From positions 62,001 through 126,000 of the forward strand of contig NJFT01000004.1 in assembly GCA_002221725.1 (NCBI GenBank): 64,000 nucleotides of DNA. Reading direction: 5' to 3'. The DNA comes from Scedosporium boydii. Taxonomy: Eukaryota > Ascomycota > Sordariomycetes > Microascales > Microascaceae. How positions within the stretch are numbered: position 1 is the first letter of the stretch; every line of letters begins with the position of its first letter. The notes under the pieces are model-generated. The model was given only the letters and a program-made list of their open reading frames with translations. It searched no databases and was not told the origin of the DNA. Below, in pieces: positions 7,538 through 60,575 of the stretch. The position numbers and the translations under genes were made by a program.

Positions 7538-9396
7538 GTTGGCGCCGGGGGGACGATTGATTGAATTATTGTGTCGCGGGTCGAAAAAGAAAGGAAAAAA
7601 AGTTTGATCCGGGGTTTAGAAAGGATACCTCGTTAGAGGGAACAGGAAAAAAAAGCAAGGGTTCCCAAGAGTCCACGAAGCGAATTGATGAATTGGGTGA
7701 GATCTGCTATCTCAATCTTCCTGATAAAAAGAGGAGAAGTTCCCTCCTCGCTGAGAAAACGTGTCGTAATCGTGCATGCAAAATGCGACTATAATTCCTC
7801 CGGTCTGGTCTGCCTTGCTGCAGCGGCAGTCAAGGATTCAAGGGTAGATAAAAAGAATATGAAAAGAATCAGCACATGCTTCGAGCAATTGTCAATTCCC
7901 CCATTGGAAGAAGATGGATCGGCGTCGTGGGAAGCTTCCTAGGCATCCGGATACTCCGGGTGTTTATTGTCTGATGGAAGAAGAAAAAGAAGGAGAGGGA
8001 AATACGTGGATCGTGAGTGGATGGAAGGGAGTGGGAGCTTGGGGCTGAGGAGCCGATGACGATGATGATGATGATGTTAGTGGGACAGGCCGGGGTTGGA
8101 TTGCTCCTTCCGTTGGACTTGATGGGATTTCTCGGAGCCTTTTCGACGAATGCTACTATTTGAAGGAGCTTTATGAAGGAGTGGAGTATTCATTCTTGTC
8201 AGAAAATACAGAAAATACTACTTCGTACTTATTCGCTTCGTACTTTTTGTACTCTAATTGTCCACGTTTCTTCCTCTTGTTCCAGGACCTGTTTTGAGGG
8301 CCTTGGTTCAAAGGCAAAATGTCTCCTGGTGGCGCCAGGACGGTGTAGCTTTGCCACATGCGCCGCATCGGGAACGGATCGAACATAAACTAAGAGCTTC
8401 CTCTCACTTTTGTCAATTGCCATCTTCTGATCTACCAGTACTCCCTTGGGCAACGAGACACCGCGCGACGCAATGGCTTTTAGAGGAATGCGCTAAAAAG
8501 GAAGGACAAAGAAAGAAAGCCTCTTGGGAAGGAAGAGGTCTGGACCAGCAGAGCGGTAGATCGAGAGCGCCAATGGCTGGTGTGATCCCAGTGGTTCGTT
8601 TCTGAACTTGATGACGCTTGGAGGAGACAAGGTGACCCTGGTAACCCCCTTCGTACCTGGTGCCGGGGTGAAAGGACAAGGTTCAACCCCGACCGTTTCG
8701 GGGAATATGGATGGGATAGTAAACCATGTCCCTCGAAAGGTGAACAGGAAACCAATCCAAGCACACTGCATTGCATTTTCATGCTCCAAAAGGAAGGCGA
8801 TGCAAACGTTTAGAGAAATGCATTCGCAGATCCCGCGTCTACGAAGTAATTACCTCGGCATCTTTGGTCAATGCCTCGCCTTGCTACTCACATCATGATG
8901 TTATTATGGAGATAGAAACAAGCCAAGAACGGCGATCGGCAAGGCAGCTGCTGCATAAGGCAATTCCCGCATCTTCTCGGAATCAATATCGATTGCGAGA
9001 GAACTACCAAAAAAGACGTACGAAGTATGCGTACTACGTCGGCTTCGTCGGGGTGGGTTACGCGTCGACTTTGCATGTACGATAGGCATCAACATTGTTG
9101 TAGAGCGGGACGTCTTCGCCCTTCTCAAGGCGTCGATTTGGTGGGGAATAGGCTAGCAAGCCCTTGGAGCATCTGAAATGACTTGTTGAGGTCGGCCAAG
9201 ACGAGCTTGGGAGGCGAGGTGCTGGAAATGTAAATCGTGCAATACCTCTTCGAGACACCACTTACACCACGTCTCACAGAATCGTCCACTTCCAGGATAT
9301 ATCCCAAGACATTTTCATCTTCATGCATTTTCTCTACATATTTTTTTTTCTCTACCCGTCTACTCAATTCCTTCCCCGTACCTTAGATACCAAAAT
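7538..9396. other. Intergenic region
   Basis: It separates the start of the acyltransferase (-) from the 3' end of the saccharopine reductase gene (-). No supportable gene is present. It holds two exact TACGAAGTA-type 9-mers (8219-8227 and 9019-9027) and one near match at about 8235-8243. The first few hundred bases are probably the acyltransferase promoter and leader. Confidence 0.6.
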
Positions 9397-11123
9397 CTAA
9401 GATATCGTCTTCTCAATCATGGTAATGCCATACTTCTCCTTCAACTCTTTCATAATAGGATCGTTAATCTTCGAGTTCATAGGCGCAAGCACACCCCTCT
9501 CCGAAAGCGTCCCATCAAGAACCTGCTTAACCGCGACACCGCAGGGAACACCGACCGTCTTCGCCATGGCCGAGTAGCCCTTGGGGTCACCATACTCGCA
9601 GAGCGTAGAAGTGCGTGTCTCGCGACGGCCATCGGCATGCTCGATGACGAACTTGTGCTGCAGCATGACAAAGTCTCGCTCGCCTTCTTCGAACTGCATC
9701 TTCTTCTCGAGCGTAGCGCAGAGCGTATCGAGCGGGTTTCCGCGGGGGATGATCTGCTCGTCTGAGAAGATGCCGATCCATCGGAGACCGCTGAGGATAC
9801 GGGCCTTCTCCTCAGGCGAGTCGAAGGTGGCCTTGGAGACGATGGCGGCCTCGAGGTCAGCCTCGCTGGAGGAAGTCGCGCCGACGATGGTCTTGGTAGC
9901 GTCCTTCCACGCGATGGGCTGGTCGAGGGTGGCCTGGGCCGTGTCGTCGAGGAAGCCGATCTCTACGAGTACGCGGATGAACTGGGGGAAGCCCTGGTAC
10001 CGGAGGGTGCCGCGGATGATGGTCTCGGCCTCGGGGATGTTGTAGCGCTCCTTGTAAGGGGTGGAGTCGCGGTTGGGGTAGGCGACGAAGGCGTAGCCGG
10101 GGTAGATGAAGTAGGGCTTGGCGGTGCCCATGAGGTCCTTGGAGGCGACCTCGACTACCTTGCCGTCCTGGTAGTACTTCGCGGCGTTGCGGAGAGCGAG
10201 GAGCACGCCGCGAGAAGACCACGAGAATTTGTAGCCGAGCGGGTTATCCGAGTCCTCGGGTGCTGGCCTTTAACTCGTTTATCAGTAACTGTTCCTTTCT
10301 TTCGAGAAAACTAGAAACGAATAGGAACGAATAACTCACAGGCCGCCACAGAAGCTTAGGAAGGAGAGGATCTTGCCGCCCTCAGCATGGACCTCCTCGA
10401 TGGTCTTGACAGCATCTAAACTGGTTAGTATTCCATGCTCGATTCATATCCTACAAAAAAGGGTCTCTTACAGAGATGATCAATTCCGGGATCTATAGGG
10501 AGAGTCAGCTACTTCTATTCGCAATGTGGGGGGTGTAGATAGATGCCCCTATAAGAGAGAAAAGGAAAGGAAAAACCTACCCAAACCGATCTCGTTCATG
10601 ACGGTGATGCCAGCATCCTTGCACTGCTGGTCGAGCTCCTGCATGGCGGGCGACACGTAGCTCGTCGTGACGACATGCTTCTTGTTGCGGATGGCCGACT
10701 TGATGACGGTAGCGTGGTGGGTGTAGGGGATCAAGCTGATGACGAGGTCGTGCTTGGCCACCTCGGCGTCGAGGGCCTGCTCGTTGCTGACGTCGACGGA
10801 GGTAGGCGTGGCGTTCTTGACGCCCTCGGAGAGCTTCTTGGCAGACTCGAGGGTCCTGCAGGCTACATTGTGTGTTTCAATTGTGAGTATTGGCGATGGG
10901 AGGGGGAAGGTCAGGGGTGCGGAGGGTCCGGGGATGAGGATGTCGTACCAACGGTGACGTGGACGCCGGCGTCGCTGAGGATGTCAAGAGTGGGACGGGT
11001 GACGAAGCCCGCTCCGAGCATGAGAACTTTCCTGGAGACGCATTTCTTCGTTAGAGCCTTGTTTTCTGGTAGTAGCCTGGTGAGTCTTGTGAATTCAATT
11101 GATGCTTACTTGCCGCTGGCCAT
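9397..11123 (-). CDS. LYS9: Saccharopine dehydrogenase (NADP+, L-glutamate-forming) / saccharopine reductase
   Basis: Penultimate step of fungal lysine synthesis: it condenses alpha-aminoadipate semialdehyde with glutamate and reduces the adduct to saccharopine with NADPH. Six exons close in frame on the minus strand: 11123-11110, 11031-10949, 10862-10581, 10492-10472, 10415-10340 and 10267-9397, giving 448 aa, the normal family length. The N-terminus carries a Rossmann nucleotide-binding motif GAGFVTRP (11-18). The 21-nt exon supplies the family's conserved Asp-Pro-Gly-Ile-Asp-His segment. The last exon carries the C-terminal catalytic domain, including PAPEDSDNPLGYKFSWS. All introns are GT-AG and about 56-89 nt. 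The first exon is only 14 nt (ATG GCC AGC GGC AA), a pattern common for this gene in filamentous fungi as far as I recall. The enzyme should be cytosolic. Identity is secure, and exon ends are inferred by eye. Confidence 0.93.
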
Positions 11124-12541
11124 GTTGGGCAACTTTGACGATGTGCGATATCGGTGGTGGAAGAGGTGGTCTTGAAGAGGGGTGAGAATGAGTCTAAGAG
11201 GGTCAATTGACCAACAAATGAAGCCCGAGATATAGATTTCTCGGCGTGGAAACTACTCCAAGGACTCTTTTTTGCTGTAAGAGTAGAAGTGACGGTCCGG
11301 AGATGGGTACGAAGTAGATCCGGGGTTGGCGTGGTGGGGGTGGATGTTGGGATTTTTTTTCTTCGTCCATCCGTCGTCGAACGCCCTCTCATGTTTTGGC
11401 GGGGTAGTTGGCCCATTGAGGAGGGGCACAATCCATTGTCGGGGTCCCCTGCTTACAAACGCGTCGCCTGTCAGAAGTCGTCAAATCCGCCGCAGACCCC
11501 GAAAGTTCGGGAAGACCCTGAGGGTCTAGCACTATTCACCAGCGAGATCGGACGTGTTAGTCATCGTCAAGTTTCGTCAGGAGCATCGTTCAGTTCGGGG
11601 ATATTCCATTGTCGGGGGAGCTTTATTTGTCTCCAAATTTCACACATCATTGTCCAATGCCAGAAGGACTTTGTAAGTTACAGCGCGTACTTGGAACGAA
11701 GCACCAGTCGAATCAAATCTCCATGGGTAATTGGTTTCTTTAGGGATGGCGAACCAGTCTCCCTGGCGTAACCCGCTGTTCCACCGCATTTAGCATGCTT
11801 TACTCTGTATGGGTGCAACATGCCACCATCATGTTATGTAGAGAATCATTGGAGAACAATGGATTGATGTAGCGTGGTAGTACATTCGTAACTTGCTCCG
11901 GATCGGGTTGCTTGGGCAGAGAGGCATCAAATTGGGACGAAACACAAAATCTTCAATCGCAAAAACTTGCTTTGGAAAGAAAGAAAAGAGGAAGAAGAAA
12001 AAGTCTCGAAAAAGAAAACAATCCATCGAGGATCCCAATGAAAACCCCGAAAGAAACTCATGTCTTACATGAGAAGCTCTAGCTTGAGGGCAAAGTAATA
12101 CATGCGAAGCAGTGTAATTAGTGGAGAGCTACGGGGAAGATGCCATACAATGTGTCACATCAATAATAAATGGCTCTCAGTAATAAGTGAGATTGTGACA
12201 CTGAGATGCGTCTCGTATCTGAATCGCGACAGGTCAACTCAACCCAACACTTTACTACGTTGTATTAGCAGTTAGACTGAGGTGGATACCTTGTCGGCAT
12301 GAGCAGGCTTCTACTGCATATAGCCTCTTTCGGTTCAATCGAGCTTCGTAGGAAGTTGAGTCGAATGGAAGGGGGGAAAAGGCAGAGTGCATGTATCGGT
12401 ATACTCCGTAAGGTTGATTATACGCCTCACCGAGCAGGTAACTGCGCTCAACGCCCTATGCGAAGTATATCCTCAGCCTCCTCTCGTCCCGTCCTTCGGA
12501 AGTTATGTAGTCATGGCCTAGCAAAGCCAGCGATGGGAGTT

Positions 12542-13005
12542 TACTTCGTAGTTTGAGACCATTTCGATGACCCTGCCCATAGCACAACAAGGATCTGTCC
12601 ACCCTAGTCGCTGCATTGCTTGCCCTTGGCAAGGCCTGGCGCGCCTAGGTGATGGTGCGAGCTGCAAGCCATTCGCTAGGATAATGGCCCCCTTGTTGTT
12701 CCTAGTTTCCTTATCCGAGGACATCATGAAAAAAGCCAATCCAGTGGCTAGTCAGTGAGCAACGGGCTCGAATACATACAGTGCATCATCTCAAGACTTC
12801 GTACAAGCACGCTACTTACTAGTCAGACCTTGAATCGTTGGGCGTTGGGGTTTTCAACCAGTCTTGCGAAACGCGGGCCCGCCAGGAACGGGATGGAAAA
12901 AAAAACAAGCGGCTATGGTGTATACCATCCCCAATGGATTGTCGCTCCAGGTACGAAGTATCTCGTCGGAGGCTGCGTGGGAGAATGCAGTGGACGTACT
13001 TCGTA
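12542..13005. repeat. Cluster of TACGAAGTA-type 9-mers
   Basis: Exact copies are at 12542-12550, 12952-12960 and 12997-13005, with a near copy (GACTTCGTA) at 12795-12803. Both orientations are present. The copies at 12952 and 12997 are 36 bp apart (end to start) in opposite orientation. Confidence 0.85.
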
Positions 13006-14289
13006 GTACGCTACCATTTTATGTCTTGTTCACTCATATCAAAGAGCAATTGATGGAGACGAGACATCGATAGTGCAGCGGGTCCATGGAGGCGAAGCTC
13101 ATGGTTGGATGTTTAATCAATGCTTGTTTGGTTTATCCATGCAGCTCTTCCCTGTCGCTTCGATCATGTTAGCGCTCAAACGGCGCTATTTCGTGCACTA
13201 CTCTAGTGCAAGACTGCAGCCAGGAGATGATTTGATGTTAATCTAGTTAAGGTACCACCAACCAGCACTAATGACGATGGGCCTGACCAGGCTCTAATAG
13301 TGCTAGCAACATCCCGGTCTGAATCGGAAAAGGAGGATGCTGATCCAGAGTCATTCATCGTCAATATCAACAGACTCACCCAAGAAAAAAAAAATCCGAA
13401 CCTGAGCAGCCGGAGAAATGATGAAGAAACGCAATTGAAATGTAAAGAGTTGACTGCCGGTCTGTAGTGAAGAAGTACAGCTAGGCAGTATAGCAGCGTA
13501 GCAGCCAGGCATACACTAGCAGTACTGCGAATATCAATCCATGTATCAGTTTCAACAAGCAATAAACTCCGATGTATTCGTACTTTGGGTCTTGGGTTGA
13601 GGTAATTCGATGTTGTCATTTCCACGAGGAAGGGATGCAAAATGCGAAGGGAAGGTACGTCCCTCCCTCCATCCCCGCCAGTGCCATGCGTCTTGCAGAT
13701 TGAACTGAACTGATTTGATCATTCAATTCGATTCGATCCTTTCTTCACCGGTTCCATCCCTCATTGCTCGCTTCACGCATACCAGAGTCCACTTAGTGTC
13801 TCCGCGCTCTAACTCCTCTGTCATCGGCTTAGCCTACAGGTGCTGCCACTCAACCCTTTTTTTTTCGAGCTCGACAGGCTTCTCGACGCGGATCATTACA
13901 ACCCCTTCTTCTCCAATTTCCGAAGCTCTCTCAGGCTCAAGCGCCCATCTCGACCGACCGAGGGTGACTGAGAGTTACTGAGAGTGGGGTGGCATGTCAC
14001 AATAGTACAATCCTCCATCCTCTACCAAATACCGACCCTGCTTCCCCCTCTAATATCCAATAAAGAAGCAGGTTACTTGCACGTACAGCACACAGGTACG
14101 AAGTATAGCAGGGCAACATCAACACGAAGCTCTCCTACTGCTCTATCGGCTCACACCTGCTTTTACCTTGCACCTTGCATCCAGCAGCACGTCCGGAGCT
14201 CAAGCTACAATCCTCGACACCATCCGACTCCAAGCTCTACCTCCCCCGGCATCCTTGTCTTGGCCACTCTAATTTACGAGGCACACATC

Positions 14290-28623: not shown

Positions 28624-29524
28624 ATGGCCACAAAACTCGCCCCCATCATAACTCCAACCCTCCTCTCCACCATCCGGCGCTATCCTAATCTCCCGCGTAA
28701 CACGTGGTACTTCGTAGCCGCCACAACACTATCCATTATCAACCGCCCGGATGAGATTCCCCAAATTTACAAGCATGCACTAGACGAGCCGACAGACTCG
28801 GCCCCGGGTCTTGAGGAACAACTCGCTATCACGCGGAGGATAAGAGAAGCGCTGATCAAGTCTGCTGCAGTGGGTGGTTTACCAAAGGTAAATGGAAGAA
28901 ATAAGGATAAGAAATTTAAGAACCTGTAGTGAGCCCATGAAATTAATCGGGATATAGGCGATCAACGCCCTTTTGGCCCTCAAAACCGTGACACCGCCTG
29001 ATCTCCTTGATGAGCCCATGGCATTCTCCCCAACGCTAAGGCCCGTCGATATCTACGACACCCCGTCCTCTCAGATCCTCAACCGCGGCCAGACCTTTTT
29101 CGACAAGGTCTACGGAAAGGTCTCCAAGCGCGTCATGGGTCAGATGGACCGATCCGGCACGGAGGATCTAGGCTTGACGGCGAGGCTCATGTACGGATAC
29201 GTTTTGAGCAACACGAACGTTCTCTCGTCCGCCGAGACGTCATTTGTTCTCATCTCCGCGTTGATACCCCAAGATGTAAGAATCAGCTTCTCTCGTCGCC
29301 CTTTTCTAGACTTGTTGCAAATTGCTAAACATACTTGTGTCTTTCAGGTCAACCCACAGCTAAAGGGTCACCTCAAGGGCGCTCTGAATGGAGGAGCCAG
29401 TGTCGCCGAGGTCAGGGCTGTGCGGGATGTCGTCATCAAGATTTGCGAGGCTTCGGGTATGAAGAGGCTTTCGGACGATGCTCCCGGCGGTTGGGGCTGG
29501 AGGAGCGAGGTCGCTAGCCTGTGA
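28624..29524 (+). CDS. Carboxymuconolactone decarboxylase / AhpD-like fold protein
   Basis: Three exons, 28624-28887, 28958-29275 and 29348-29524, give 252 aa. The central and C-terminal part (AETSFVLISALIPQD, then LKGHLKGALNGGASVAEVRAVRDVVIKICE) has the helical pattern of the CMD/AhpD-like fold. The Cys-x-x-Cys redox pair typical of AhpD is not visible, so a peroxidase-reductant role is unlikely. The family includes fungal peroxisomal CMD proteins; the C-terminus here ends ASL, not a canonical PTS1, so location is open. The second intron is 72 nt, a multiple of three and stop-free, so retention would insert 24 residues. The GTAAGA donor, TTTCAG acceptor and a GCTAAAC branch-like site favour splicing. 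Exon 1 contains one exact TACTTCGTA at 28708-28716, read as Tyr-Phe-Val. Substrate unknown. Confidence 0.72.
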
Positions 29525-37762: not shown

Positions 37763-37793
37763 TACGAAGTAGTGTACACGATACTACTTCGTG
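37763..37793. repeat. Inverted pair of TACGAAGTA-type words forming a hairpin-capable palindrome
   Basis: Ten-base arms ACGAAGTAGT (37764-37773) and ACTACTTCGT (37783-37792) are perfect reverse complements around a 9-nt loop. The left arm contains an exact 9-mer; the right copy ends TACTTCGTG. Confidence 0.85.
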
Positions 37794-40700: not shown

Positions 40701-43700
40701 GTATTTATGTGGGTTTAGCGTTTCTGGTTCTTGGGAAGAGGCACGCTGAGAAGGTTACAATGATGCCGAGTGCTTTGTGTACTGAATGGAATCCCTGACA
40801 AATTTGGGTGGTCTCTACGAAGCAATGAAGCCGCGGTCTCCGTGATACTGTCGCGATTGTAACATCACCCGCTAAAATATTGCGTCAAGCCTCTACGCTC
40901 TATTACCAATAGCACAATCAATATTTAAATTCCGACGGGGAGCACGCAGAGCCCAGCATCAATATTATCCATCGAATGGTAATGGTATCCATGTCCATTA
41001 CTCACATCGGTCGGGGGAAAAGGTTTATAGAGAAAAGAAGAAAAAAAAAAGCAATATGACCAGGGCAAAGTCGGGAGGAGCAACGCATTCACTTCCCCGA
41101 GCCCCAGCGAATCATCGACGCTAAAGGCGGCATTAAAACATTGAAGTCGTCACAGCCCGCAGCATACGAGGTGGCCATTGTCCATCGAGTACAATGGGTA
41201 CGGTACCTGGCATCTCTGAGCAAATAATCTTATCCTGCACCTAGTATTCTTTTACGTACCTTGAATTCAATCCCGTAGTGTACTTTCACACATCAGATAG
41301 TGTCCGGCTTGCTGGGTGGCCTATCAGGAGTCGGCCAAGACTCATTGTCCGAATCAATGCACGCTCTCTTGTTTCCCTTCAGGGGGGCAGGGGGGAAAAA
41401 GCCATGTCGATCTGCAGTCACCGCAAGCCAGACCGCTGCCAGAACCAAGTATGACAGGCAAGAAAGTTTTGCCTTGGCTTGGAGGTCACTCCCGGACCTG
41501 TGCTGGTTTCTTTTCGTGACACCTACGCAGTACGAAGTAGTTGCAGGATTGTTAGTGCCTGGCTAGATTTTACTCCGTGCTTCCAAGTTGGCAGATGAGA
41601 GCCAACATCCGGAGTTTACGCTGGGGATTCACTCTTATGACTCTTTTAAATTCCTTCAACTTGAGGGCATTGCTAGTCGAGTCCTCCCTTCAACACTCTG
41701 GTCCACTGCAACATTGTCAGTCGCAGAGCATTCCAGGATTGGCAGCAGTGCAAAATTTATCAGTGCACCGATGAGCAGTTGCCCGAGACTTCATCTTGGT
41801 CTGTGCCTTGCCGCCTGGTAGGGAAAATTAGGCGAAACCAAAGCGAGAATTTGGTCGAATTGGAATCGGAACCTCTGGTAAAGTCGCTCCAGTGGCCGTA
41901 AGCGGTCGAAAATGCTACGTTGACATTGAGTATATGTGGTTCATCTTAAACACGAAGATTGCTGGACGGCGGAAGATCAGAGCAAGGGAGCGGGATCCCA
42001 AGATGATGGGTAATGCAACCCAACGGATTTCTTGGGACAGCGAAGAAAGCGATATGGAGTGCTCATTGGGGGGAAACGAGGACTGCATGTGGAAGAGGGT
42101 TCCATTGGGGGCAGTGCCGTGTACAAGGTACTTTGAAGTTGCATCCTGTTGCCGACCAATGTGCCTGCCTTTTCCTCGCGGGCGATGTATCTTGGTACTG
42201 TACCTTTTTCCCCTTTGTACTTGTCGGGAAAAGTACCACAAGACTGCCTGTTCTGGCGATTTGGTTCTCCACAGGCTCCACCGACCAATGTACACGACGC
42301 GACGTAGTTCTAGTGTAATACAGTACCATGGCTTTGTGGCGGGTACTGTACACTAGTGCAATTGGGGACTTGGAGAAGTACCTAATACTCGTCACAATAC
42401 TTTGGCTCTCGACGCAGGGGAGGGGTGCAGTTAGCCAGATGGTGATGCGCAATACTTCCGCGTCCCTCCGAGAAATGTTATAGCCCTACAGTGTACAGTG
42501 ATGTGCGTGCTGTGCTGTGCTGCGCTGTGTCTACTGAGGGATTGAGATTGAAGGTGGGTGTCTGTGCAGTGGTGAATAGATCACTCAATTGATTGATGTT
42601 ACGCCATTGATACTTCGTATCTCAAGCATACGACATCGGTGTAAACGATGGAACTCTCACACCTCTGCAAAACGCTCTTAATCAAAACTTCTCACATTTT
42701 CGAAGCACATCACCGATGCGAATTGTGACAGAAACCAGTGGACTCTCCCGTAGTGTCGAAGTGCACGTGCTGTTTCTCAACAATGGAGTATGGATCCGCC
42801 GTCTTGACCCTTGCTAGGGCCATTACATCCATCCTCTGTGCAGTGGTCTCCATCTCCACTCCAAGGCGGGGCCATCGCTAATCTATCCTAGAACAAAGTG
42901 GAATTTATTTCCACTCTAGCGGCAAGAAATAACCCTCCGACGGCACTCGGACGAACGTATTTGTCCTTAGCGAATGCGAGAGCGAACGCAGGTCCAAAAG
43001 CAGACGAAGTACTAACTTATGCACGAGGAGGACATCACGGAATTGCAAAAAACAGCTTCTCAAACTTGATATCCCTGAACCGAACACACAAATCACTCAC
43101 TCGTGTCTCTCTTTCTCCATCAGCCCTACGAGGAAACATCAAAAAAGACTCAGCCACAAACTAGCGCTCGACAACCTTCCATCTTCGTTCTCTACCGCAT
43201 CGTCACATGGCGTAGCCGAGGTGTAAGTAAAGACAAAATAGGAAACATTCGATACTCATCTTAAAAACCCCAAATGGCGGTCTTGTCAATCCGTTCATTG
43301 GATGAACTTTATTCACCGCTCCTGCCACGATGAGTTGGCGCTTCTTCTGTTTTCCCCGCGCCTCAGTTGGCGCATGCGCTTGAGCCATTTAGCAGGTGGG
43401 TCGTAGAAAATCGTGGCTTGGAATGCTGCTAAAAGGTACATCAAATTTAGAGCGTGGGCCTGCACCGAAATGGGTAACCTGGACGTGAGGCCTCCGTTGA
43501 GGGTTGTGGCGCAGTCATCGGGGAGAACCGCGTCGCCGGATACGAAGAATGGAATCAATGTTTTCCAACTGGAGACACCGATCATACGGCAAATGCAAGG
43601 AAGAGAATGACGATGCATCATGACAACACTCATCCACCGAAACGGGCAGGAAAGTCAAATCTGGGGAGAATGGAAATGTGTGGCTTGTGAATAAAAGTTA

Positions 43701-45656
43701 TGGCGGTGTGCTTAACATTAACAGAATCAAGCGCGCTGTCCAAAGAAAGTGATGCTCATCTTACGCCTCGCCATGTTGCGCAGTGCGCACTAAGCTTCAG
43801 CTCGTTCAGCTCAAAAACCTTACTTCGGCCCTATTCGTTCGTTTTTCCCTTACATGATTTTGCTCACATTCTTGATGTAAATGAGAAAATAGCCGCGGTG
43901 AGGCGGGCCGCATAGGGCTAGATGATGACGTTGATCGCTTCGGTGTAGTTTTTGTGTCTTCTTTCTTTTTCATCTGATCTATTGACGCAGTGAGGAGACA
44001 TCGTGATCTCCTTTCCGTCTTGGCGGACGTTGAGGGAAGACTGCGCCTCGCCCACACCCCCATCTAAACTACCTTCTTCACATCATAATGGATATCCTAC
44101 TTCGTATACACAACGCGGGGACTAGTCGCTTCTTTCTCGCCTACGCGGGATGGCTGTGACGGGAAAGCGGCCTCCATCATCCATTGAATTGATTGCCTCT
44201 GGGGAAAATATGGGGCTTGGCTCGGGGTTCACAAATCAGATTGCTGGATGCCGAGCCGCTGGGTCGCCGAACTCGGTATTCCGATTAATTCTTGCACGCA
44301 GCCATCATCGATTCGTGAATTGATGCTCTCGAGTACTTAAGTATCTTCCGAGTGAAACTTGGTACTCATCGCTTTTCTAGAGACGTTTGAGGCCTACCTT
44401 ATTGTAACCGTCGCATTGAGCCTTCCTCGCTCTCCTCTCCTACTTCAGTTTACCGAAACGAAGCATCATGCTAAACCGGCGTATGGGTTTGCTTCTTTAT
44501 CGACCTCGGTCTGCAATTCCGCGAGGTGAACATGGGGTCCGGCGTCTAAAGGAGAGGACCAAACTCGGGCATCCACACCCGCCCGAAGCCTAGATCCGAC
44601 GATGCCCCTATCCACGCGGGATAACCCCTACCATCGCGTGTCACCCCTTCCATGGACGCCCCTAGAAATTCCGCACCTCTGGCATTATGGAGCAAAAACA
44701 TGCTCAACCCGCACGAGCCAGCCACACAGACTTGCAAATTGAACAGTCCTGTCATCATGCAATTAACGCGTTGACCAGTCATGGCTTGAAATGGACATAC
44801 ACCACTTGCGATCTCTCACAACATCCCGCTTCCGTGAGATGTGCATTTTAACTCTTTAGGGAAGTAAGTTTCGAGCCTTGTAAAAATAGGGGTGTTGGAG
44901 CCGGTGTTTTGGGTCTTCTGCAAGCCTAGGGAGCATGTTGTTTTTTTGCTGTTTTATTTTCTTTGCTTAGTGCATCCGACTTTCATCATCCTTCCATCGA
45001 TGAAATGGTTTCGACCGAGGCGGAACGAAATGAAAACAATCGTGCACAAGTAAAAAACCACTGGTCGAAACAAAACGCCGCCTCCCTAGCCCTATAGCCA
45101 CCTCACTTTCAAGCATTGATCTTACATGATTCGAAAAAAGGAGAACTCCTTCGTAAATATGTTCCCACCAATGCCGATTCAACCCCCTCGATAAGGCTGA
45201 AGGCTGAGCACATTGGAACACTAACATTTTCCCGCGTCGATCCGCCCCCAACTGGGGCGCTTCAAACAAGCCGGACAGGATCCTGGCGTGCACGCGCATA
45301 ATAGGGGTTGGACCTTGTGGCCTCTCGGTAAGCCTTTCCGCGAAATGTTATTCGCCCATGACGAAGTGTTTAGGTTTGGTACGCAAGACAAGGGGGAAGA
45401 AAGCGAGATTATCACCAAGCAAAGAGGACCGCTCATAGTAGACTCTCATATGCCGTGAGAAACAACAGAAATCTAGATCTTGGTCCGATTTAAAACATAA
45501 ACTTGCTTTCTGTGGAGGGATCGGAGGGTGTTGAACGAGTCATTTGAGGGCGGCAGGTTAATCTCGCGGCGGGCAATAATACGCCAATACTAAGCCCATC
45601 GCAGTAAGGGTTCGATGAAGGCGAGCAAATCCTGCCAGCCACCACTCACTCCCTTC

Positions 45657-45680: not shown

Positions 45681-46372
45681 CTTATTGAGGCGTGTGTACT
45701 CTCCTTCGTCTTGCTTCCACATTGCTTTCGGACCCGATTCCAAATACTTTTTAAACTCGACAAGGGCTTGAACAAGACAAACGCCACGTCTATGCACGGA
45801 GCAAGGAAACACAAGCCATTTTTCACGTCTCTTTTCGTTGGGTGATCTGCCCCAGGAATGGGTTTGCGGAATCGGACCCCATTTTCATTGAGGCTCAATT
45901 AATATTTCTGTCGGTGTGTCGTGTACAACTCCACTCCTTGCAGTATTTAGAGAGTGGGTTGGAAGTTTGCTCGGCTTGTTCCGGAACGAGCGTCCATCTC
46001 CAGAGTGTTTACTTTCTTTCGTCTTCCGGTGTCCGAGGTCATCAATCGGGGGGCCCTCCCTATTGCCTCCCCTCTCGATACTAGGGATAGTTTTGGACCC
46101 AGGATTCTTTAGATTTGAGGGTCAAGAAAGGGTTACGTTCAATGACACCCATTCGCAATCTCACACATCCATCATATCCAAACACGACATGATGGGATGT
46201 GTACGAAGTAGATAGGTAATGATAACAACTTTACTTCGCACTATTGACCATAAGGGTTGTCTGAAGACGTCTTTACCAAGTGAAAGGATCAACCCCTTAG
46301 CCTGTGGAGTGGGGGCCAGGACGGAGCTGGCAAGGGGACCAAGATTGTGTCCTAAACTTTGTACTTTGTACT

Positions 46373-46405: not shown

Positions 46406-48345
46406 TGTGATCCCGCGGGGACTTAGCGCTATGAAAAATATGGCCTGGCGGCACGCCCCTGATAGGGATATGAGAGCGGTACCCTCCTCTACGAAGTAGG
46501 TGGTATTAGGGTGTGTTGGTGTTGGTGCAGTGCCACGAATGACCAGGACCATGCCGGCATCCCCATGTCATCCCAAGAATGCTACCATGTTGCCTCTAAT
46601 TCGCAGAGGTGAGTGCGCGCTCAATTCCGCATGTCGAGACTGCCAGACTGCCACATGACTCCTCCCCCCCCCCTTGCTTGTCGTGATGCGAGGAGTTTTG
46701 TCGGATGGTCGTGTGTGATTCCACTTGTAGGCTTCATGCTTCTGCAGGGGAAAAATTAAGGAAAAAAATTAGAAAATTAGTGGGGGCCATAAACATTCCC
46801 GTGCTACGGGGCAGGTTGGAAGAGAAACGATGGGTGTGGGTGAGAGTCGGTAATCTCCATTCCGTCAAACACCGCTACCTGTTCCCATGACGGGGGATGG
46901 CGAGAGGGATGTATGAAGTAAACTATTACTCCCCTCAATTCAAAAGAAATGACTAGGACTTGGGACTCTTCTGTAGATGCCTCCATCATGCGCTTAGAGG
47001 CGTCATTGGACAGCCACGAGTAGAACCAATGCCAGGAGACTAATATGTTGATGTCGCCAGATCCAAAGTCGTCGAAGTCTAGTGCCACCATTTGATGCTC
47101 CCTTCCTGTGCACCGCCACGAAAATGCTCTTTTTATAACTTTTAACTATTGGCAAGTGCGTGGAGACAAGTGATGTCTCATGTTCCGCAGCGAGTTGACC
47201 GACCTGAACCACAGGGCGAGATTTGAGGCAACCAATGAACAAGAAAGGGTTACATCCGTTCAAATCTCTGTGAAAGGACCACCATCCGCTGGCGCTGGCT
47301 GGGGTTTCCGTCAGCCACCCCGTGCAGAAACCGCTGAGCCACCGCTATTCCTGAAGGGGATACAAAAGTTGGGATGCAAAAATATTGGTGACCAGAAGGA
47401 GCCTAACATCGAAGAGGGAAAAATGAGACGGGAGAAAAAAAAAAAAGGAAAGAAGGAGAGAAAATACTAGGAAATGAGACGTGTTTCCCTCGTGCGGACC
47501 TCGTGCATGCTCCGTGGTTCTGCAAGGCGTGGAATCGAGAACATTGAAACTGTTATGGAGGCTCATGTTCAATGTTGCTTGTAGGAATAGGAAATAGCAT
47601 CACGACTCAGTCGTGGGGTCTTGCATGGTTGACTTGTACTAACTAGCATTGAGTTCAAGGTTCTGTTCAATGGCGGGGACATAAGCACTAAGCGATCAAA
47701 TCAATTAAATTTCGAGAGAAATCAATAGCTGGGAGCTAAAATGACGCCCGTCAAACAACGACAAGTATGTATTGATTCTTTGGGGATTCACTTTCTCCTC
47801 TGCCGCTGTCTCGCTCGGATCGAGACCAACCCCAAGTAGTTTCATACCCGATTAACAGACGCTGTGTGTGTCTTGGAGGGACCGGGGAATGTCGGGCCTT
47901 TGGCTGTGCATCATCCCCACGAAGACACTTTCTTTTTTTCGTTGTCTCGCAGAACATTGGCAACTTTCATCATCGCGGACTTCGGCCTCATTAGATGAAT
48001 AATATTATGTTCGGGGGAATTATTATTGCACAATTGGGATCGGGAGCGATCGTCGCTAGCAGGATCCTGTGAATGCAACCTCTCAGGCTTCCAAAGCATC
48101 GGAAATAAACCCTTTTCATCCCATCGAAGCCCCCTCAAGCCAGCAGGGCTCGTGCACCACCAAGGAGGTCGCGGCCTCCGCCAGAGAAATTGATGGGTCC
48201 CTCGAAACGTTTCCTCGCTGGCTGTCGCTATTGGATGCGCTCGTTGAATCGTCCAATCGCCGTCCCAGAAAGCCACAAACAAACCCTGCTAGCTATCATG
48301 TAACCTATGAACTATCAAGTATGAAGCAATTATGGGTTCTGAAAG

Positions 48346-48361
48346 TACTTCGTACAGAGTA
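48346..48361. repeat. Overlapping TAC-N3-GTA dyads
   Basis: TACTTCGTA (48346-48354) overlaps TACAGAGTA (48353-48361) by TA, so two dyads with different centres share bases. A further exact copy is at 48458-48466. Confidence 0.85.
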
Positions 48362-48864
48362 CGTAGCATCAATGATTTGTCAGTGGACCGGTAAAACGTG
48401 CTGCCCCGGGAAGAGGAAGACAGGTACCAAGACGGAGTAAGGCATACAAGCCTGTTGTACTTCGTACCCGCCAACAATACCACTGCAGGCAACGGGGCCG
48501 GGGGCAAGCAAGAAACAGCACTGAGAGGGGGACAAAAGAGGTGGTGGGGTCCGGACTTGAAGTTCTTGCATTGATGTCGTTGATGCCGTTCAACGTCCGC
48601 ATATCGACCACTCAGAGGTCTGGAAAAGTGAAGATCAGCGTTGCTGCCACTAATTGGGTGTGAGACACGAAGAATGAGTGGTTGGCCAGTTTATCATCTT
48701 CCTCTTCCATTTAGACGTCTTACACGACTACGGAGGTGTACACAGGTAGTGTTCACTGCAAACTGCCAGAGAACCCCGAAATGGACTGTCTTGCTTCCTT
48801 CTGATTACTACCTTCTGCCGACTTCGACTGGAACCTTCACCTGGCAAAATCAAGTTCACGAATC

Positions 48865-48881: not shown

Positions 48882-51800
48882 CTCTGTACAACTAACTGTA
48901 TACTACTTGCATAGTAGCATTGCTTTCTCCTATTTTCCACCTCGTGACCGTACCGAGTTGCTTTTTATTCTTGGACTGACAAAGTGGGGGCAAAGCGATG
49001 ATCCTGAGCAAGACGTCGGGTTTAGCCCAAGAATGGTGTATCTGCCCGACTTGTAGTGGAAGAAAGGCATCATCGCCGAGCAGGATACGTTCGTTCCTGT
49101 TGATATTGTTTCTTTTTTTTTTTTGCTGCCGTTGAAATTAACACTGACGGCTCTTAATACCTAATCGAGAGATCGGAAGTCAACCCCTTGCCGCTGGTAG
49201 CCCTACACCGATTTGTCATTTCTTGTCACGATTGGAGACAAACTGCGTAAGTTGAAGAAACGCCTTTTGCGTGTACTTCCAAAATACGTGTGTTTACTAG
49301 GTCGTCGGAAGTAGAACGGGGAGGGCACAAGGCAGCTGGAAATCAGGCTGCTTTTGGCAAATGATCTACATCCTGCTGCAACCTGCATCCGAATACATGG
49401 ACCTACAGGCTTGCACCAGTGCGTTGGAAAAAATTCCCAGCGTCTCTCGTCCTGGTCTTCCCGTCCCTTCTTGTTCTCGGATGCAGCAGGAGAGGGTACT
49501 TCGTAGTGGACTGGTAATGCTGCTTCGTCCTCTCGTCAACGCACTTCGACACTTTCTGGGTACATCCTGCGTCCAAGGTCTATTGGGTCTAAAATTAAGG
49601 TTCTTGACACCATACTCGATCCTTGAAAGAACACAGGAACATGAGAAGATAAGAGCCCGCCAACACTCAACTGGGTCATCTGTTACATTGCCGTTGGACT
49701 ATTTACTGGTAGTCCTAAAACCGTTCAAGTGCAGGTTAAACTAGTGAAATCAATCCTCCCTTGGGAAAGGAGTTGTCAGTATCATCACGAAGATCCAAGA
49801 TGCGCCTGATTATCATGATCGTGGACGGACCGCCCGTCTCTTGCGCCAGATCCAAACTAAGACCATAGGAGGCACCACAAGCGCCGCCAGGGGCGTGTGT
49901 TCAAAGCTTTCAAACATTTTTACCCTAAAAAAGTGAAGTCTGGGGCGGCGGCGGTGACGAGCTTAAGCCCCCGTTCCCATGATGCCCCACGATATTTCTG
50001 ACCTGTCACATATATCCCACGTCAGTCACCGACTTCAAAGCTTAGAGACCGGGTCGCGCCAGATTTCTCTTAGTCTACTTGTGGATTGATAGGTTTTCGG
50101 TTTCTGAGACCCCTCCCTTCTACAAGTACGTAGTTGAAAATTGTTCGGCGAGGTGGGAAAGGCGGGGAGACGCCCACGGAGGAGACCAAAGGGTGTCGAT
50201 TTCGCTGCCCAACTGGTGAATGGCCAAACAACACTACCGAGCACGCCAGCGCTACAAATCGAAACTGTTTTTGCCCACCTGTTAGACGCTAAAAAAAAAG
50301 CCGTGTAAGATGCTTTTATCTTTCTTCCTTCCACCCCCTTCGTGCAGGGGCACATGTTCTTGCTTCGGACTTCATAGTGCAAGACACTGCAGATGAAAAG
50401 TGTATGCTTCTGTTTAGGCTTTGTGGAGATTACACTACGATTTGGAATCTGGGTCGAGATGGACTGTCGTCTCGTTAAAAGGCGGGGAAGGAATGTGCGC
50501 TACGATTGTTGACAGTCTGCAGGCTTCATGAAGGGCATCTAACATTCCCCTGGTTGCCTTGAAGGTGACGGTCCCTGTAAAGTGCTGTTACAACGGACCA
50601 GCCTAACTTTTGACCGATGGGCAACCATCCTCGCTCGGCATGCTCGAAGCAGGAAATTGAACGAACAGAATAAACGCGGATATTCTGTACAAGGCAGGTC
50701 CAGAGCCACACACGACGGACGTAGCATCCTAGTCAACTGCTGGCTGCCAGGCTCTGCTAATAATTGAAAAACGTAGAGGCAGTCAAGTGTGGCTCAGGAT
50801 GTATCGGGTACAGTACTTCGCACCAAAAAGGCGATGTGAGGGGGACACACAGACGACAGCTCGCGGGGAATCACAGTCTCCAGAAATCAATCGAAAGGGC
50901 TGTGCTCCAACATGGATCGGGGCAGATGATGGCGGCTTTGGCTTCATGATTGGTTCCCCTGTTTCCGTCAAGAGATGAAAGCCACTAAAACCTGAGCCGG
51001 CTTGTTTGGCAGGACAGGGGTGAGTGGAGAGATAGAGAGGGACTGAGAAAATGTGCTCACTTGCCCCCACTGTCCCGTAGTTCAGGCGCATGGACCGTCT
51101 TCGTCTGGAGGACCGCCCAGGTCACGACTTGGTCTTCCAAGCACCGGCTCTAAGACTCCCTGGATGTCGGCCGTTGGGCGGTGGCAACCGTTGGGGCAGA
51201 ACTACCGCTCGCGCTGATACAGAAGGCGCTTAAAAGCATATTTCTCCAAGCTGCGAGAGGCCGCATGGTGGCTGGATAAATTGGATATTACGAAGTATAC
51301 GACCTCATGGAGAATGCAAGCTCTGAGGATCAATCCGGAGTTACCAAACTCAAAGAAAAATGATCTGCAAACCCGGGAATAGGCCGAGCAAGCAAGAAAG
51401 GGTAGTATCTGCGAGCTCAAATGGCGTAGGAACCACTGCATAATCCTACGTAAAGTTTTAGGTGTGGAGTGAACGGGAGCATACGTCAAAAGTATTGTGT
51501 GCTTCTCGATGGAACAGCACCGGGGAGAGTCAAGGGGTATGAGTAGATCTCTCCTCTTTCTTGCAAAGGTCGATCACCATCTATCTGCCAAGAGCTCGCC
51601 GCCCGGGGGTGGAGGATGGGAGGGGCCGGCAATCGGTGTTTCTGGCTGTCATATTTTTTTTTCTTTGTCGATCGGAAAGGCAGGAAACGAAATTTCGAGA
51701 TAGCTCCATCGAACTCCGGAACTAGACGACGATGCCTACCAGGTTCACGAGCAAACCAAAAGTGGGCGGGAGGATCTACACTACAGTACCACTTTTCGTG

Positions 51801-54472: not shown

Positions 54473-54865
54473 TACGAAGTAACGATAGATCCTTTGATCC
54501 TTAGACTCTGCTAAGATGTTGAAAGTGCGACTTAGACTGGGCATACACTAAGCGTCAAGTCTGATGTCGAGTCAACCCGAGTCCTCATCTGCGCCTGCTC
54601 CATGATGAGTGGGACACAAGCAGTCCCCAACTCCCGTACGAAGTACTTCATTCGACAATGTACGGGACACTGAAGGCTTGTACCCGAGAGCCCGAGAGTT
54701 GGAAGGTTCAATGTTGGTACACTGCGCAATATTGGCGCATGCTTTTTCCCTCTCTCGTCCCCCAGTCTCCATCAATGTTCCTTCCCAAGAGCCAAAAGGA
54801 GAGTGGAGTAGGAAATAGTGCACGTACTTCGTACTGCTCAGAGTATCAGGGGGCGTGTACAGTAC
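54473..54865. repeat. Cluster of TACGAAGTA-type words next to GTACAGTAC
   Basis: Exact 9-mers are at 54473-54481, 54637-54645 and 54825-54833. GTACAGTAC follows at 54857-54865. The last two 9-mers extend to four-base arms (GTAC-N3-GTAC). Confidence 0.85.
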
Positions 54866-55975
54866 ATCCCCTGTGTTCATCTCTTCGTGTTGTCTGGTCT
54901 GAAAGTATCCTGTACTGTTCGCTGTACCCTACCTCAGTCCCACAGACAGCAGAGAGAAAGGTCTACCTGGTTAATCCACCCCTCCCCTGTAATTTCCCTC
55001 GCACGCCCCTCCTCCATCGCACTGCACTCTCAATCCCACATCCACACACCCCCGTCTCCCAAATATCAGTGGACAAGACATCTTCCCCCATGTCCCTTGT
55101 CTCAGCATCGCACCCCCCTCCCAGACCCCCCCAGCGACAATCCCTGTCTGTCACCAAACTCTGGCTCTGTGTACCGCCTTCGCCCTACTGCCAGGCTACG
55201 AGCACGACCTAACTGAATTAGAGGCCCTAAAATAAGGTGCGAGTCTGGGACATCAGAGCCTGCAGGAGCTCCGCCTCTTCACGAGATGTACAGGCTTTGC
55301 TTGCAGAAACGGGGTTTTTGGTTTTTGGGAGTCTGCTCCCAAAGGTATATATGAATCTCCAAGGCCCCCAATGTCAAACCCGTGCATCTTCTGGGAGAAG
55401 ATTATCACTCCTCGTTCAAGCCATTCGTTCCCATCTTGCTATCTTATATACATCGCCATCATCCCTCTCTTCTCTCTCTGACCTCCCCGTTCCTTTCGTT
55501 CATTAAATCTTCACCATACAATCCACGCTCGCCATTGCTGGGACTTGGATATTAATACGCCTTCTCTCGTTTTGGATCCCGCTTACACACAAAACGCTAG
55601 AAGTTCCCGTCATTGCTGGCATGGTCAACTAGAAGGTGAGATCTTTCTTTCGTGCCCAACACAATAGCTCAGCTACATGCGGGCCGACTCTGCCTAGCCC
55701 GACTCTCGAGCCAATCTGGCACCGACTGGCTATGGTTGCTTGTCTTGGAAAAAGACGGAATCAAAATGAGAATCCACTAACACGACGCCATTCGGAAAAA
55801 GCAGTCTTTGGCTCAAGACCCCGGTTTAGGCCGTCACTTCTCTTCTCATACAAAACTCCCGAGACCCCAATCCCTCCTCCAAACCACCATTGACCTTCTC
55901 CCATTCCTCAAGTCTTGTTCTTGAGGACCTCTACTCTCTCCGCCACACACAAACGACGCCCGCGCATTCACCGCA

Positions 55976-58366
55976 ATGATCTCGATAGAACAGTCCTTCA
56001 ACATGTTCAACAGGCATATGGGCGGTGGCAACGATGATAACGATTACGCGCGATATCCCGACCCTCCCCAGGCTCTCTTTTCTTCCGGCGCGCCAGTGGA
56101 CATGGGCTTGACGCCGGATGCGTATGCACCCTTCACCGCCACCACCGCGCAAGAGATGTTCCCCACGACGATGGCCTATGACCCCTCCTCCCTCTACGCC
56201 GAGACCCCCAGCTACCTCTACAACGGCCGCTCTTCCCCCGGCCACTTCGACGACGGCGATATGAGGGCCGGCTCGTCGAACCTGTCAACCACTTCTGCTC
56301 CCTCCGCCGCATCCTCCGCCGTCGGCTCCCCGCAGTCGAACCACGGCCAACTCGCACCCATCCCCGAGTGGGCGCCGCAGACTCTCAGCGTGTCGCCGAA
56401 CATTGTTGGCCACAACGATTACTTCCCCGGGGGCTCTGAGTACTCTACATTTCCCACAGGTATGGAGGAATATACTTCTCCCTTCGACTTTAGCAACGGC
56501 ACCAAACCTCCCGGGTTTGTTGGTGAGTTGCCTTATTTATTTTTCTTCTCCCTCGGCTGTGTTTTGTTCAGAATGGCTGTGTTGGGCACTTTTCTCCCCT
56601 GTACTAGCTTTCTTGAGAACAAGTGTGCTGCAATTCTCTCGTTTCCTCCAGTTAAGTCGCTGCCGGTAGTGGCGGAAAGTATTTCTCTTGTCCCCCGCTT
56701 GTAAACAAGCAAGTGTTGGGACGGAAGGGGAATAGTTTGGGGATAGGCGCCCTCTTGTCTCCACTCCGGTTTTGCTCGCCGAAAGTGGTGATTGATGGAG
56801 AGCCAACCCAGCTCGGTCTTCCCCTTTCTCCGCTCTCGATATCTAGCACTTTTCGCACTGCTCTTTTCCCCTTAGCCATTTATTTTTTCCCTGTATTTTC
56901 TCTTGACACAATCTACAGTCCTCTTGTCTCGATCTCCCACTAACTGAACTTCCTTGCTCCTTGCAGATCCTTCTCTTATCCACCCGGATATTAGCCGCCC
57001 GATTCAAATGACCTTTGACGGCCCCTTCCAGACTCCCACCACTGCCTACCCTACTTCCCCCGCGCTCTCCCACGGTGCTTCCTCTCCGCAGCCCATGCTC
57101 AGGAACGGAAGCCAGTCCCCGTTCCTGCACGGAGGGTTCCAACAGCCCTTCAGCCCCTATCAGACCCCCATGGATTCGACCAATTCACGAAGGCCCAGCC
57201 ACCCCTTCGTTTCCCCTAACTACTCCGAAACCACCGCGTTCAGCAGCGATGAGTCCAAGGAGAAGTCGAGGTGCCCACACCCCGATTGCGGCAAGGCCTT
57301 CAAGGACCTGAAAGCCCACATGCTCACCCACCAGAATGAGAGGCCTGAAAAGTGCCCCATCCAGACGTGCGACTACCACATCAAGGGCTTCTCAAGGAAG
57401 TACGATCGCAACAGGCACACCCTCACCCACTACAAGGGCACCATGGTCTGTGGTTTCTGCCCTGGTTCTGGTTCTGCGGCGGAGAAGTCGTTTAATCGCG
57501 CCGACGTCTTCAAGAGGCATTTGACGGCCGTGCACGGTGTTGAGCAGACTCCTCCCAACAGCCGCAAGAAGGCGCCCTCTACCGTCTCGGCAGGCCCCAA
57601 GAGGCTGTCTGGCTACCCGCCTGACGCTACCGGAAAATGTAGCACTTGCTCGCAGACCTTTGGCAATGCCCAAGACTTCTACGAGCATCTCGACGACTGC
57701 GTGCTCCGCATTGTGCAGCAGGAGGATCCTGCTGAGGCTGTCAACGCCAAGAGGCTCGCCGAGGTGGAAAACGACCGCGAGGTCATGCAGACTCTCGAGA
57801 AGAACAACCTACCGCTCTCTATGTCTCCTGCTGCCGGTGTCGAGGATGGCGAGGAAGACGAGGATGATGAGATGCATCACGACGACGATGAGGAGGACGA
57901 GGATGGCTCCGCCAGGAGGAACGGCACCTCGAGGCGCAGGTCGGGTGGCAACCCCGCTAACGGTGTGCAAAAGTCCCGAGGAATGACGCACTCTCGGGGT
58001 GGTGTCCTTCTCAACACCCGCCGCGGCCGCAAGAACCGCCGCGACTACCCCTCATCCTGGGGCTTTGACAAGGGCCAGATGACGATGAAGAAGCGCGTCA
58101 TGGCTGTCTTCGAAGGCCCCCGCCGTCTCGCCAAGGACGACATGATGCTGTCGACCGAGCACGAGGTCCGTGTCAGGTTGTCGGATGGGGACTCTTACGT
58201 TACGGACCTCGATGTGCAAACGCTCAAGAGGGCCGAGGGTTTCCTCCACGCCACTGATGAGGAGAAGGGACCTTGGATTTCGGACGACCCTACCGAGGCC
58301 GAGCTCAAGCAGATGAGGGAGATGCTCGAGATTAACAGGACAGCGCCCACCACCGCTCCTGCGTAA
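55976..58366 (+). CDS. C2H2 zinc-finger protein, probable transcription factor
   Basis: Two exons, 55976-56522 and 56967-58366, give 648 aa. The first ~280 residues are Ser/Pro/Gly-rich and probably disordered. Zinc fingers follow: Cys285-Cys290-His300-His304 (short finger), a second starting at Cys312 with His333 and His337 and a longer spacer, a third C-x2-C with His367 and His372, and a C-C-H-C cluster at about 407-427. An acidic Glu/Asp/His-rich stretch (about 467-490) precedes an Arg-rich segment and a conserved-looking C-terminal block (RKNRRDYPSSWGFDKGQM, then KKRVMAVFEGPRRLAKDDMML). It is presumably a nuclear DNA-binding regulator; I recognise the fungal family type but no named member. 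The single intron is long (444 nt); retaining it would give a 242-aa product without fingers. It sits alone beside a 24 kb gene-free upstream stretch. Confidence 0.85.
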
Positions 58367-59220: not shown

Positions 59221-59240
59221 AGAGAGAGAGAGAGAGAGAG
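59221..59240. repeat. (AG)10 microsatellite
   Basis: Ten perfect AG units in intergenic DNA. Confidence 0.9.
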
Positions 59241-60575
59241 CCGACGTGGCACGTCACAGAGAGGGTTGGATTGTCATTAACGGGGAGGAATTATTAGGCG
59301 CAGCTCACTCCCCCCCTCCAACCTCTGGGACCAGGACATCAAAGGGCATATGAGGCCGGTAATAGGTCGAATCTTACTCTTACAACGGCTAAGCGATGAT
59401 GCAGGGCGAAGTCTACTGTTCTCTCCTTGCCCCTCCCTTGTTGGGGAAGAAGAATGGTCAGCATCCTACCAGTGGATTGGGAAATGATCTCCATCACATT
59501 GGGAGTGGGATTCCTGGTGGTCTTCAGAGTCGTTTGGTGTTGCTCTCCACTGTCTCGGGTCATCTTAAGAGGGGGGGGCACACCAACCCTCCTCGACGAC
59601 CAGGCTGGTTGGGTGACGTTCCTGTGTGGAAAGAGATGAGGTGTGCTTTATACTTCGTAGACCTTGACGTTAATAGAGAGTGAGAAGGAGGGGCGTCTTT
59701 TTTTCCCGCGGGACGAGGCGAGGTTAGGGGGCTGGGGAGATCTACGGAGTGTTTGAAAGTCGAAGTGAGATGGAGGGTTGTGTTTCTATTTTGGTGTCCC
59801 CCGCTTCTGTTCGGGAGGGGGGCGGTTCCATTGTCTTTGAGGGAAGGGAGACGGAGTTGGGTTGGTGGGGTGGTAGTCTCGGGGGCGGAGGCGTTCCGGG
59901 GACGGGCCCAAGTTTTTTGTATACATTGATCATCGACTGTTGAAGCAAGGAGTGGGAGGGGAGACAAATTTCGCTGTGATGGTTTCTGAGGCCATAATCA
60001 AGCCACCTTTGCGCAGTTTCCAACACTTTAGGTGTTGGAGTCTGCAGAGCGGCTTCTGGATTTCCCTGGGACAGGGCGTGCAACAATGAACCAGGTGTTT
60101 GGTGATGATTTGGGAGGGTGGATTATGTAAATGGAGAGAGTGATGCCAGTAAAGAGGTCATCTGGGCTCTGCGAGCATGCTCCTCGTTGGGCCAAGGGAG
60201 GGAAAAAGAAAGGTATTTAAATGTCCAGGGCTGGTTTCGAACTAACAACTCTCCAAGTCGCCCTCCTCCCCTCAACATCTCCCGTCTGGAGATCTCACAA
60301 CCTCTGCAGGGCAAGCAGACGAGGATGGTCTCACAGAAAAGAAGCAAAAGAAAATTCTCAAATATAATAAAAAAAAGAATTCCCACTTCTCCCGCCCCGA
60401 TTCCCAATTTCCCTTGTCCAATTCCCGCTTTCTCATTTCCTCCACGTCTCATGGTTTGACCAGACCGGGTTCCACGCCGGCGCCTTGCGGAAGTAGTTTA
60501 TAAGCAGTACATCACCGCTCGACCACTTTGAGCTTCCGTGAGACGTTGAGAATCGAGACCGAGATTCTGATATAT

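Follow-up and report, generated by a model that had tools for sequence, protein, structure and literature searches.

The closest described relatives of the sequence word treated here come from other ascomycetes. The top motif of Aspergillus fumigatus SomA in chromatin immunoprecipitation followed by sequencing (ChIP-seq) is GTACTCCGTAC, which is found in 119 of 476 peaks and was followed up in an electrophoretic mobility shift assay (EMSA) with a mutant probe (PMC7667024); it has been reported for meaB as well (PMC10900910). In A. fumigatus Af293, the word CTACGGAGTA exceeds the 99.99th k-mer percentile and matches the direct repeat of Tardis, a Starship element; the authors of that work propose a transcription-factor site and point out that it overlaps a motif of the C6 zinc-cluster type (PMC12153272). 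ChIP-seq of UvCGBP1 in Ustilaginoidea virens gave six motifs, TACGGAGTA among them (PMC8344781). The element under study is the 9-mer TACGAAGTA, which a sequence-only reading had picked out in a 64 kb stretch of DNA from Scedosporium boydii. This stretch, called the window in the following, corresponds to positions 62,001 to 126,000 of contig NJFT01000004.1 (C4:62001-126000) in an assembly of 42.9 Mb and 442 contigs. TACGAAGTA is probably a cis-regulatory element: an abundant regulator with sequence-specific DNA binding is predicted to recognise it, and it would be the form that the word TAC-N3-GTA takes in this fungus.

The window contains 25 exact copies of TACGAAGTA, 13 in forward and 12 in reverse orientation, while dinucleotide shuffles of the same DNA yield a mean of 0.22 and a maximum of 2 copies, none of the 100 shuffles reaching 25. 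Over the whole genome of 42.9 Mb, 6,384 copies are present versus 426 of the reversed word, which is a 15-fold excess. The mean density is 149 copies per Mb, or about one per 6.7 kb, and the window, with 391 per Mb, is 2.6 times richer. The window has 25 copies and a stretch of 200 kb on contig C1 has 31; against this total of 56, Markov models give expectations of 0.8 (order 1), 1.6 (order 3), and 5.7 (order 5); order 6 expects 17.9 and order 7, which already holds the 8-mers of TACGAAGTA, expects 49.6. The excess is real, strong, and beyond ordinary composition. The sequence-only reading had proposed to measure its word against a Markov background, and on this sample the comparison clearly favours its finding.

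The word is sharply delimited. Pairs of TAC and GTA in the window and C1 are in excess at a spacer of 3 bp only (107, versus 32-42 at each other spacer from 0 to 8), and the centres of these spacer-3 pairs are GAA/TTC in 56, GGA/TCC in 11, and AAA/TTT in 7 cases, with every other centre at 4 or fewer. Genome-wide, the general word TACNNNGTA, that is TAC-N3-GTA, has 15,050 sites, including the 6,384 GAA-centred and 1,040 GGA-centred ones, while the other 30 centre classes average, by arithmetic, about 254 each. The same genome hence carries the GGA-centred 9-mer TACGGAGTA as a minority form (1,040 versus 297 for its control). At the level of 11-mers, GTACGAAGTAC, with the core GTAC-GAA-GTAC, is present 1,489 times versus 22 times in reversed form, and its GGA-centred counterpart GTACGGAGTAC 213 versus 31 times. 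The adjoining bases carry clear information, G preceding the word on its 5′ side in 30 of the 56 copies and C or G following on its 3′ side in 38; beyond one base on either side no shared flank was found among these copies, the sequence being near random farther out. Words with a single mismatch are in excess, too, both in sampled non-coding DNA (102 versus 30.6 expected) and genome-wide (15,273 versus 10,513 for the reversed control). Among these near-miss words, the two outer positions accept G or C more readily than the core accepts changes, and overall the excess of transitions (46) is larger than that of transversions (25). Either graded binding or decay of old copies could yield such an excess.

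The position of the copies relative to genes was analyzed in a location sample of 294 kb (C1:1-200000, C4:52001-136000, and C60:1-10000) with 60 copies of TACGAAGTA, from which the stretches L032-L034 (30 kb, chosen as site-rich) and L001-L008 were excluded; genes were called with an own 3-periodic Markov coding hidden Markov model (HMM) trained on long open reading frames (ORFs). Gaps between convergent genes hold 3 copies in 40.6 kb, versus 19 in 54.5 kb of divergent and 38 in 93.9 kb of tandem gaps, the latter two together accounting for 57 copies in 148.4 kb. Convergent gaps thus make up 21% of the intergenic DNA but contain only 3 of the 60 copies, and permutation of the gap types within length classes gives a P of 0.004 for this scarcity. 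The four convergent gaps longer than 4 kb have 2 copies in 23.0 kb, both within one gap. The 235 7-mers used as controls occur 50-110 times each in intergenic DNA and have 0.24 as their mean share in convergent gaps; a share of 0.05 or lower, which is the level of TACGAAGTA, is reached by one of them, CAATTGA, which derives from another over-represented word. The scarcest 7-mers in convergent gaps are mostly pieces of TACGAAGTA and of the over-represented ATCAATTGA. The argument for TACGAAGTA from convergent gaps grew stronger after this control. Upstream of an adjacent gene start lie 57 of the 60 copies versus 78.5% of random intergenic positions (P 0.0004), a figure that is the complement of the convergent count and not independent of it. 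The upstream copies are located at a median distance of 2.1 kb from the gene start and show no preferred orientation, 25 pointing the same way as the downstream gene and 32 the opposite way. The 500 bp next to gene ends have the lowest density, with 4 copies in 30.6 kb at 5′ ends and 1 copy in 28.1 kb at 3′ ends.

Coding sequence is largely avoided as well, and this sign turned out to be less specific. The HMM labels 101.0 of the 294 kb as coding (34%), and none of the 60 copies falls there; it overlooks at least an exon near 28.6-28.9 kb of the window and an F-box-like ORF at 30.6-31.3 kb, and because of the former the copy at 28708 was counted within a "gap". The translation of that exon is 80% identical to a Lomentospora orthologue and 66% to a Cephalotrichum one. 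At least 1 of the 60 copies is therefore coding, which is much less than the 34% of the DNA called coding (binomial P about 3e-10) and 29% for composition-matched 9-mers. The other TACNNNGTA words in the sample are coding in 3 of 48 cases, the GGA form in 1 of 12, and the reversed word in 1 of 5. The statement of the sequence-only reading that the copy at 28708 is the only one in coding sequence holds as far as tested, and the density comparison it had suggested favours its finding against all sequence; it does not do so against the other TACNNNGTA words. Since these are scarce in coding DNA, too, the coding argument is weakened, and coding depletion was dropped as a sign special to TACGAAGTA.

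Copies of the word are clustered at short range. Genome-wide, 233 TACKWMGTA pairs are separated by 0-30 bp versus 5 in the control, and 335 pairs from the TACKNMGTA family, versus 12 in the control, overlap head to tail at a period of 7 bp. The overlapping pairs share a TA, and among the 50 pairs listed, GAA and GGA words are mixed in tandem and inverted orders; the 7-bp period gives no strong conclusion, because the shared TA eases chance overlap, by arithmetic, about 16 times. On C1, TACGGAGTA lies within 100 bp of TACGAAGTA in 3 of 17 cases (P 0.019), within 500 bp in 6 of 17 (P 0.046), and within 1 kb in 6 of 17 (P 0.18), the significance of this co-location being weak. A search for a partner word within 100 bp of TACGAAGTA gave nothing convincing. 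At C1:187051-187660, four TACGGAGTA are found within 610 bp, in a gap devoid of TACGAAGTA.

Further over-represented words became apparent in a non-coding sample of 190.6 kb (the window and stretches of C1, C4, and C60), namely ATCAATTGA with 22 occurrences versus 1.6 expected, and GTAGTGTA/TACACTAC with 27 versus 2.8 expected. TACACTA, which counts as a third over-represented word, is among the 12 of the 235 control 7-mers with the lowest convergent share. As pieces of ATCAATTGA and of GTAGTGTA/TACACTAC belong to these 12, both may be other regulatory sites.

The copies in the window are listed below together with the related features, all assignments to TACGAAGTA being exact matches.
8219..8227, minus strand, TACGAAGTA
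8840..8848, plus strand, TACGAAGTA, absent from the list of the sequence-only reading
9019..9027, plus strand, TACGAAGTA
11308..11316, plus strand, TACGAAGTA
12402..12410, minus strand, TACGGAGTA, the variant of Aspergillus type, with a GAA copy 140 bp away (converted from C4:74402-74410)
12542..12550, minus strand, TACGAAGTA
12952..12960, plus strand, TACGAAGTA
12997..13005, minus strand, TACGAAGTA, in opposite orientation 45 bp from the 12952 copy
14097..14105, plus strand, TACGAAGTA
28708..28716, minus strand, TACGAAGTA within coding sequence, encoding Y-F-V on the plus strand (exon assigned by homology)
37763..37771, plus strand, TACGAAGTA
38830..38838, plus strand, TACGAAGTA
40173..40181, minus strand, TACGAAGTA
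41531..41539, plus strand, TACGAAGTA, overlapping TACGCAGTA at 41524 via a common TA
42611..42619, minus strand, TACGAAGTA
44098..44106, minus strand, TACGAAGTA
46202..46210, plus strand, TACGAAGTA
46490..46498, plus strand, TACGAAGTA
48346..48354, minus strand, TACGAAGTA
48458..48466, minus strand, TACGAAGTA
49497..49505, minus strand, TACGAAGTA
51289..51297, plus strand, TACGAAGTA
54473..54481, plus strand, TACGAAGTA
54637..54645, plus strand, TACGAAGTA
54825..54833, minus strand, TACGAAGTA
59651..59659, minus strand, TACGAAGTA
55952..58366, plus strand, gene for a C2H2 zinc-finger transcription factor, downstream of the desert rich in the motif (ORFs, HMM exons, and homology)

About 24 copies had been claimed from the sequence alone; all 24 positions given are correct, the copy at 8840 was overlooked, and the total is 25. 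The stretches of 14.2-28.7 and 28.8-37.7 kb are free of copies, as had been said, and the view that the copies occur in both orientations and belong to no longer repeat agrees with the strand counts and with flanks that share only a preference for the adjacent bases.

A gap of about 26.4 kb (window 29,520-55,951) separates a carboxymuconolactone-decarboxylase-like (CMD-like) gene from the C2H2 gene; it includes the F-box-like ORF, has 15 copies of TACGAAGTA inside, and holds the cluster at 37-55 kb. Clustered regulatory sites would be expected in such large gaps upstream of regulator genes. The best named match of the C2H2 gene is jhhlp_001826 of Lomentospora prolificans (90% identical), and that of the CMD-like gene is also from L. 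prolificans (74%), Lomentospora being a member of the Microascaceae (Microascales, Sordariomycetes). The two genes have consecutive tags in Lomentospora (jhhlp_001827 and 001826) and near-consecutive ones in Cephalotrichum (DNG_01840 and 01838). The sterol O-acyltransferase gene of the window has its best named match in Cephalotrichum gorgonifer (75%). Apart from these, a DDE_1 transposase-like ORF of 405 amino acids is located at 25908-27125, and a 20-copy array of the hexamer GAACGT at 2524-2645 encodes an Arg-Glu repeat in the DnaJ-domain ORF 1933-3714. Elsewhere in the assembly, matches to DUF3435, the Starship captain family, are present at C21:2906-3899, C102:60655-61335, and C199:54995-55420, with stop codons in two of the three.

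According to the favoured explanation, an abundant sequence-specific regulator would bind TACGAAGTA with its core GTAC-GAA-GTAC, and the word would have a cis-regulatory role in the non-coding DNA that precedes genes, its copies acting singly or in short-range clusters and in either orientation. Transcription would thereby be regulated, and the copies would be kept by selection. TACGAAGTA would then represent, in this fungus, the TAC-N3-GTA word that with a GGA centre is the SomA motif of A. fumigatus. A protein-binding site had been among the explanations offered by the sequence-only reading, which is partly supported overall; it draws support from the sharp TAC-N3-GTA word, the fixed spacer, the avoidance of convergent gaps, the clustering, and the near-identical ChIP-seq and EMSA motif of A. 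fumigatus. For a chromatin or replication mark, another of its suggestions, the data speak neither for nor against. Several points weigh against this explanation. The location bias may in part be generic, because it is shared by ten CpG-containing 7-mers of middling GC content (mean convergent share of 0.14, some being pieces of TACGAAGTA) and, to some degree, by the other TACNNNGTA words, of which 6 of 45 lie between convergent genes. The gene boundaries rest on a simple HMM of our own, 25 of the 60 sampled copies come from the window, which itself had been picked for its richness in the word, and the difference in coding share from the other TACNNNGTA words (1 of 60 versus 3 of 48) is not significant (Fisher P 0.32). 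The excess of single-mismatch words amounts to about 0.8 of the exact excess genome-wide and about 1.2 in the sample, and neutral gain and decay would leave the same pattern of near-miss excess and transition bias. Neighbouring sites show no 10.5-bp helical phasing (Rayleigh P 0.14, 50 of the 233 pairs). As for SomA, the centre of its motif is TCC/GGA in Aspergillus versus TTC/GAA in the main word here, and its action on yeast FLO11 has been tied to a different consensus, TTTGC (PMC4631450). Som1 proteins are described as bearing a LisH domain (PMC3228794); of the four candidates scored in a LisH search, one matched and looked Gid8-like by eye, and there was no Som1 orthologue among the four.

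Of the other origins, a genome-organising mark, that is, a word bound by a protein of architectural, insulator, or replication function that requires untranscribed DNA, is rather unlikely. Scarcity near gene ends and in convergent gaps would in that case reflect avoidance of transcribed DNA, and the 15 copies within one 26.4 kb gap, the low density within 500 bp on both sides of genes, and the unbiased orientation towards the downstream gene are in line with it. Long convergent gaps (above 4 kb), however, are copy-poor as well, and the closest known motif has been presented as the promoter site of a transcription factor (PMC7667024). It is the upstream bias because of which a transcription factor is favoured over an architectural one. 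An origin as a short element that is selfish or left by insertion (a transposon footprint, for example, or a TA-flanked micro-insert, TA-CGAAG-TA) would account for a word that begins and ends with TA and is scarce in coding sequence, and a related word is the Starship direct repeat in A. fumigatus (PMC12153272). This possibility, which the sequence-only reading had also raised, is nevertheless very improbable, since the flanks share nothing beyond one base per side, leaving it without the longer common flank, and since avoidance of convergent gaps is unexpected for an excision scar. Moreover, excision footprints usually vary, whereas the word is sharp. A longer repeat and the end of a MITE were rejected as well, the flanks being near random.

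C-GAA-G is a very stable DNA mini-hairpin, and TAC and GTA are complementary arms around its GAA loop, which would allow TACGAAGTA to be a mutational or structural product in which snap-back copying completes the arms. Of the 16 complementary arm pairs around CGAAG, however, only TA/TA is clearly in excess (56 versus 11.6), the remaining 15 totalling 33 versus about 48 expected, and the next flanking pair lacks complementarity (17 of 56 versus 16.6 expected). With the enrichment restricted to TA/TA and the next pair not covarying, a hairpin origin was rejected as extremely improbable. Still less credence is due to a compositional or microsatellite artefact. The 335 head-to-tail overlapping TACKNMGTA pairs with their 7-bp period might suggest one, but they are few beside 6,384 copies, and Tandem Repeats Finder reports no such array in the window. 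Given the reversed word (426 versus 6,384) and the shortfall of the Markov models (0.8-5.7 at orders 1-5 versus 56), composition was excluded and a tandem-repeat origin rejected. As hairpin, mobile-element, and composition origins do not fit, protein recognition remains, and a protein-binding cis-regulatory site is most likely the better explanation.

A SomA/Som1 orthologue leads among the candidate binders on a tentative basis, a C6 zinc-cluster or other factor being about as likely. In full-text searches of openly licensed papers, none of the listed titles and abstract openings presented the GAA form as a motif; the hits in PMC11537487 and PMC6414702 were primers, and the passages shown of PMC12430421 do not contain the word. 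It is conceivable, albeit speculative, that a hyper-abundant word TAC-N3-GTA, regulatory or architectural in function, is common to filamentous ascomycetes and that a switch of its central base pair sets lineages apart, Aspergillus having GGA and the present fungus GAA. Thousands of sites would then have changed together as a single global DNA-binding protein altered its specificity. If the switch were true, sequenced genomes would allow a direct view of how a transcription factor coevolved with its thousands of sites. As an entry point to a global regulator in a fungal family that has been little studied, the exact 9-mer is strong and cheap, and it gives context to the unexplained Aspergillus k-mer CTACGGAGTA, which is also a Starship insertion site.

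Summarizing the comparison with known systems, highly iterated words such as cyanobacterial HIP1 and bacterial uptake sequences are short, exact words present thousands of times and common in coding DNA; TACGAAGTA likewise has thousands of copies and, unlike them, is scarce in coding DNA of the sample. With the UvCGBP1 motif TACGGAGTA of U. virens, a Sordariomycete, it has the TAC-N3-GTA core in common and differs in the GGA centre of the former. The k-mer CTACGGAGTA of Af293 shows the same extreme genome-wide excess, although one base differs and the main word here is centred on GAA instead of GGA. In the case of SomA, 476 shared ChIP-seq peaks stand against 6,384 copies of the 9-mer core here. 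By its letters, TACGAAGTA falls outside the SomA motif in the strict sense, and the GAA form is taken as a new variant, possibly confined to this lineage, of the word type seen in Aspergillus. With GTACTCCGTAC, it has in common the GTAC-N3-GTAC architecture, 10 of 11 bases, and the location upstream of genes, including those of regulators, and the best reading is that it would work like the SomA motif.

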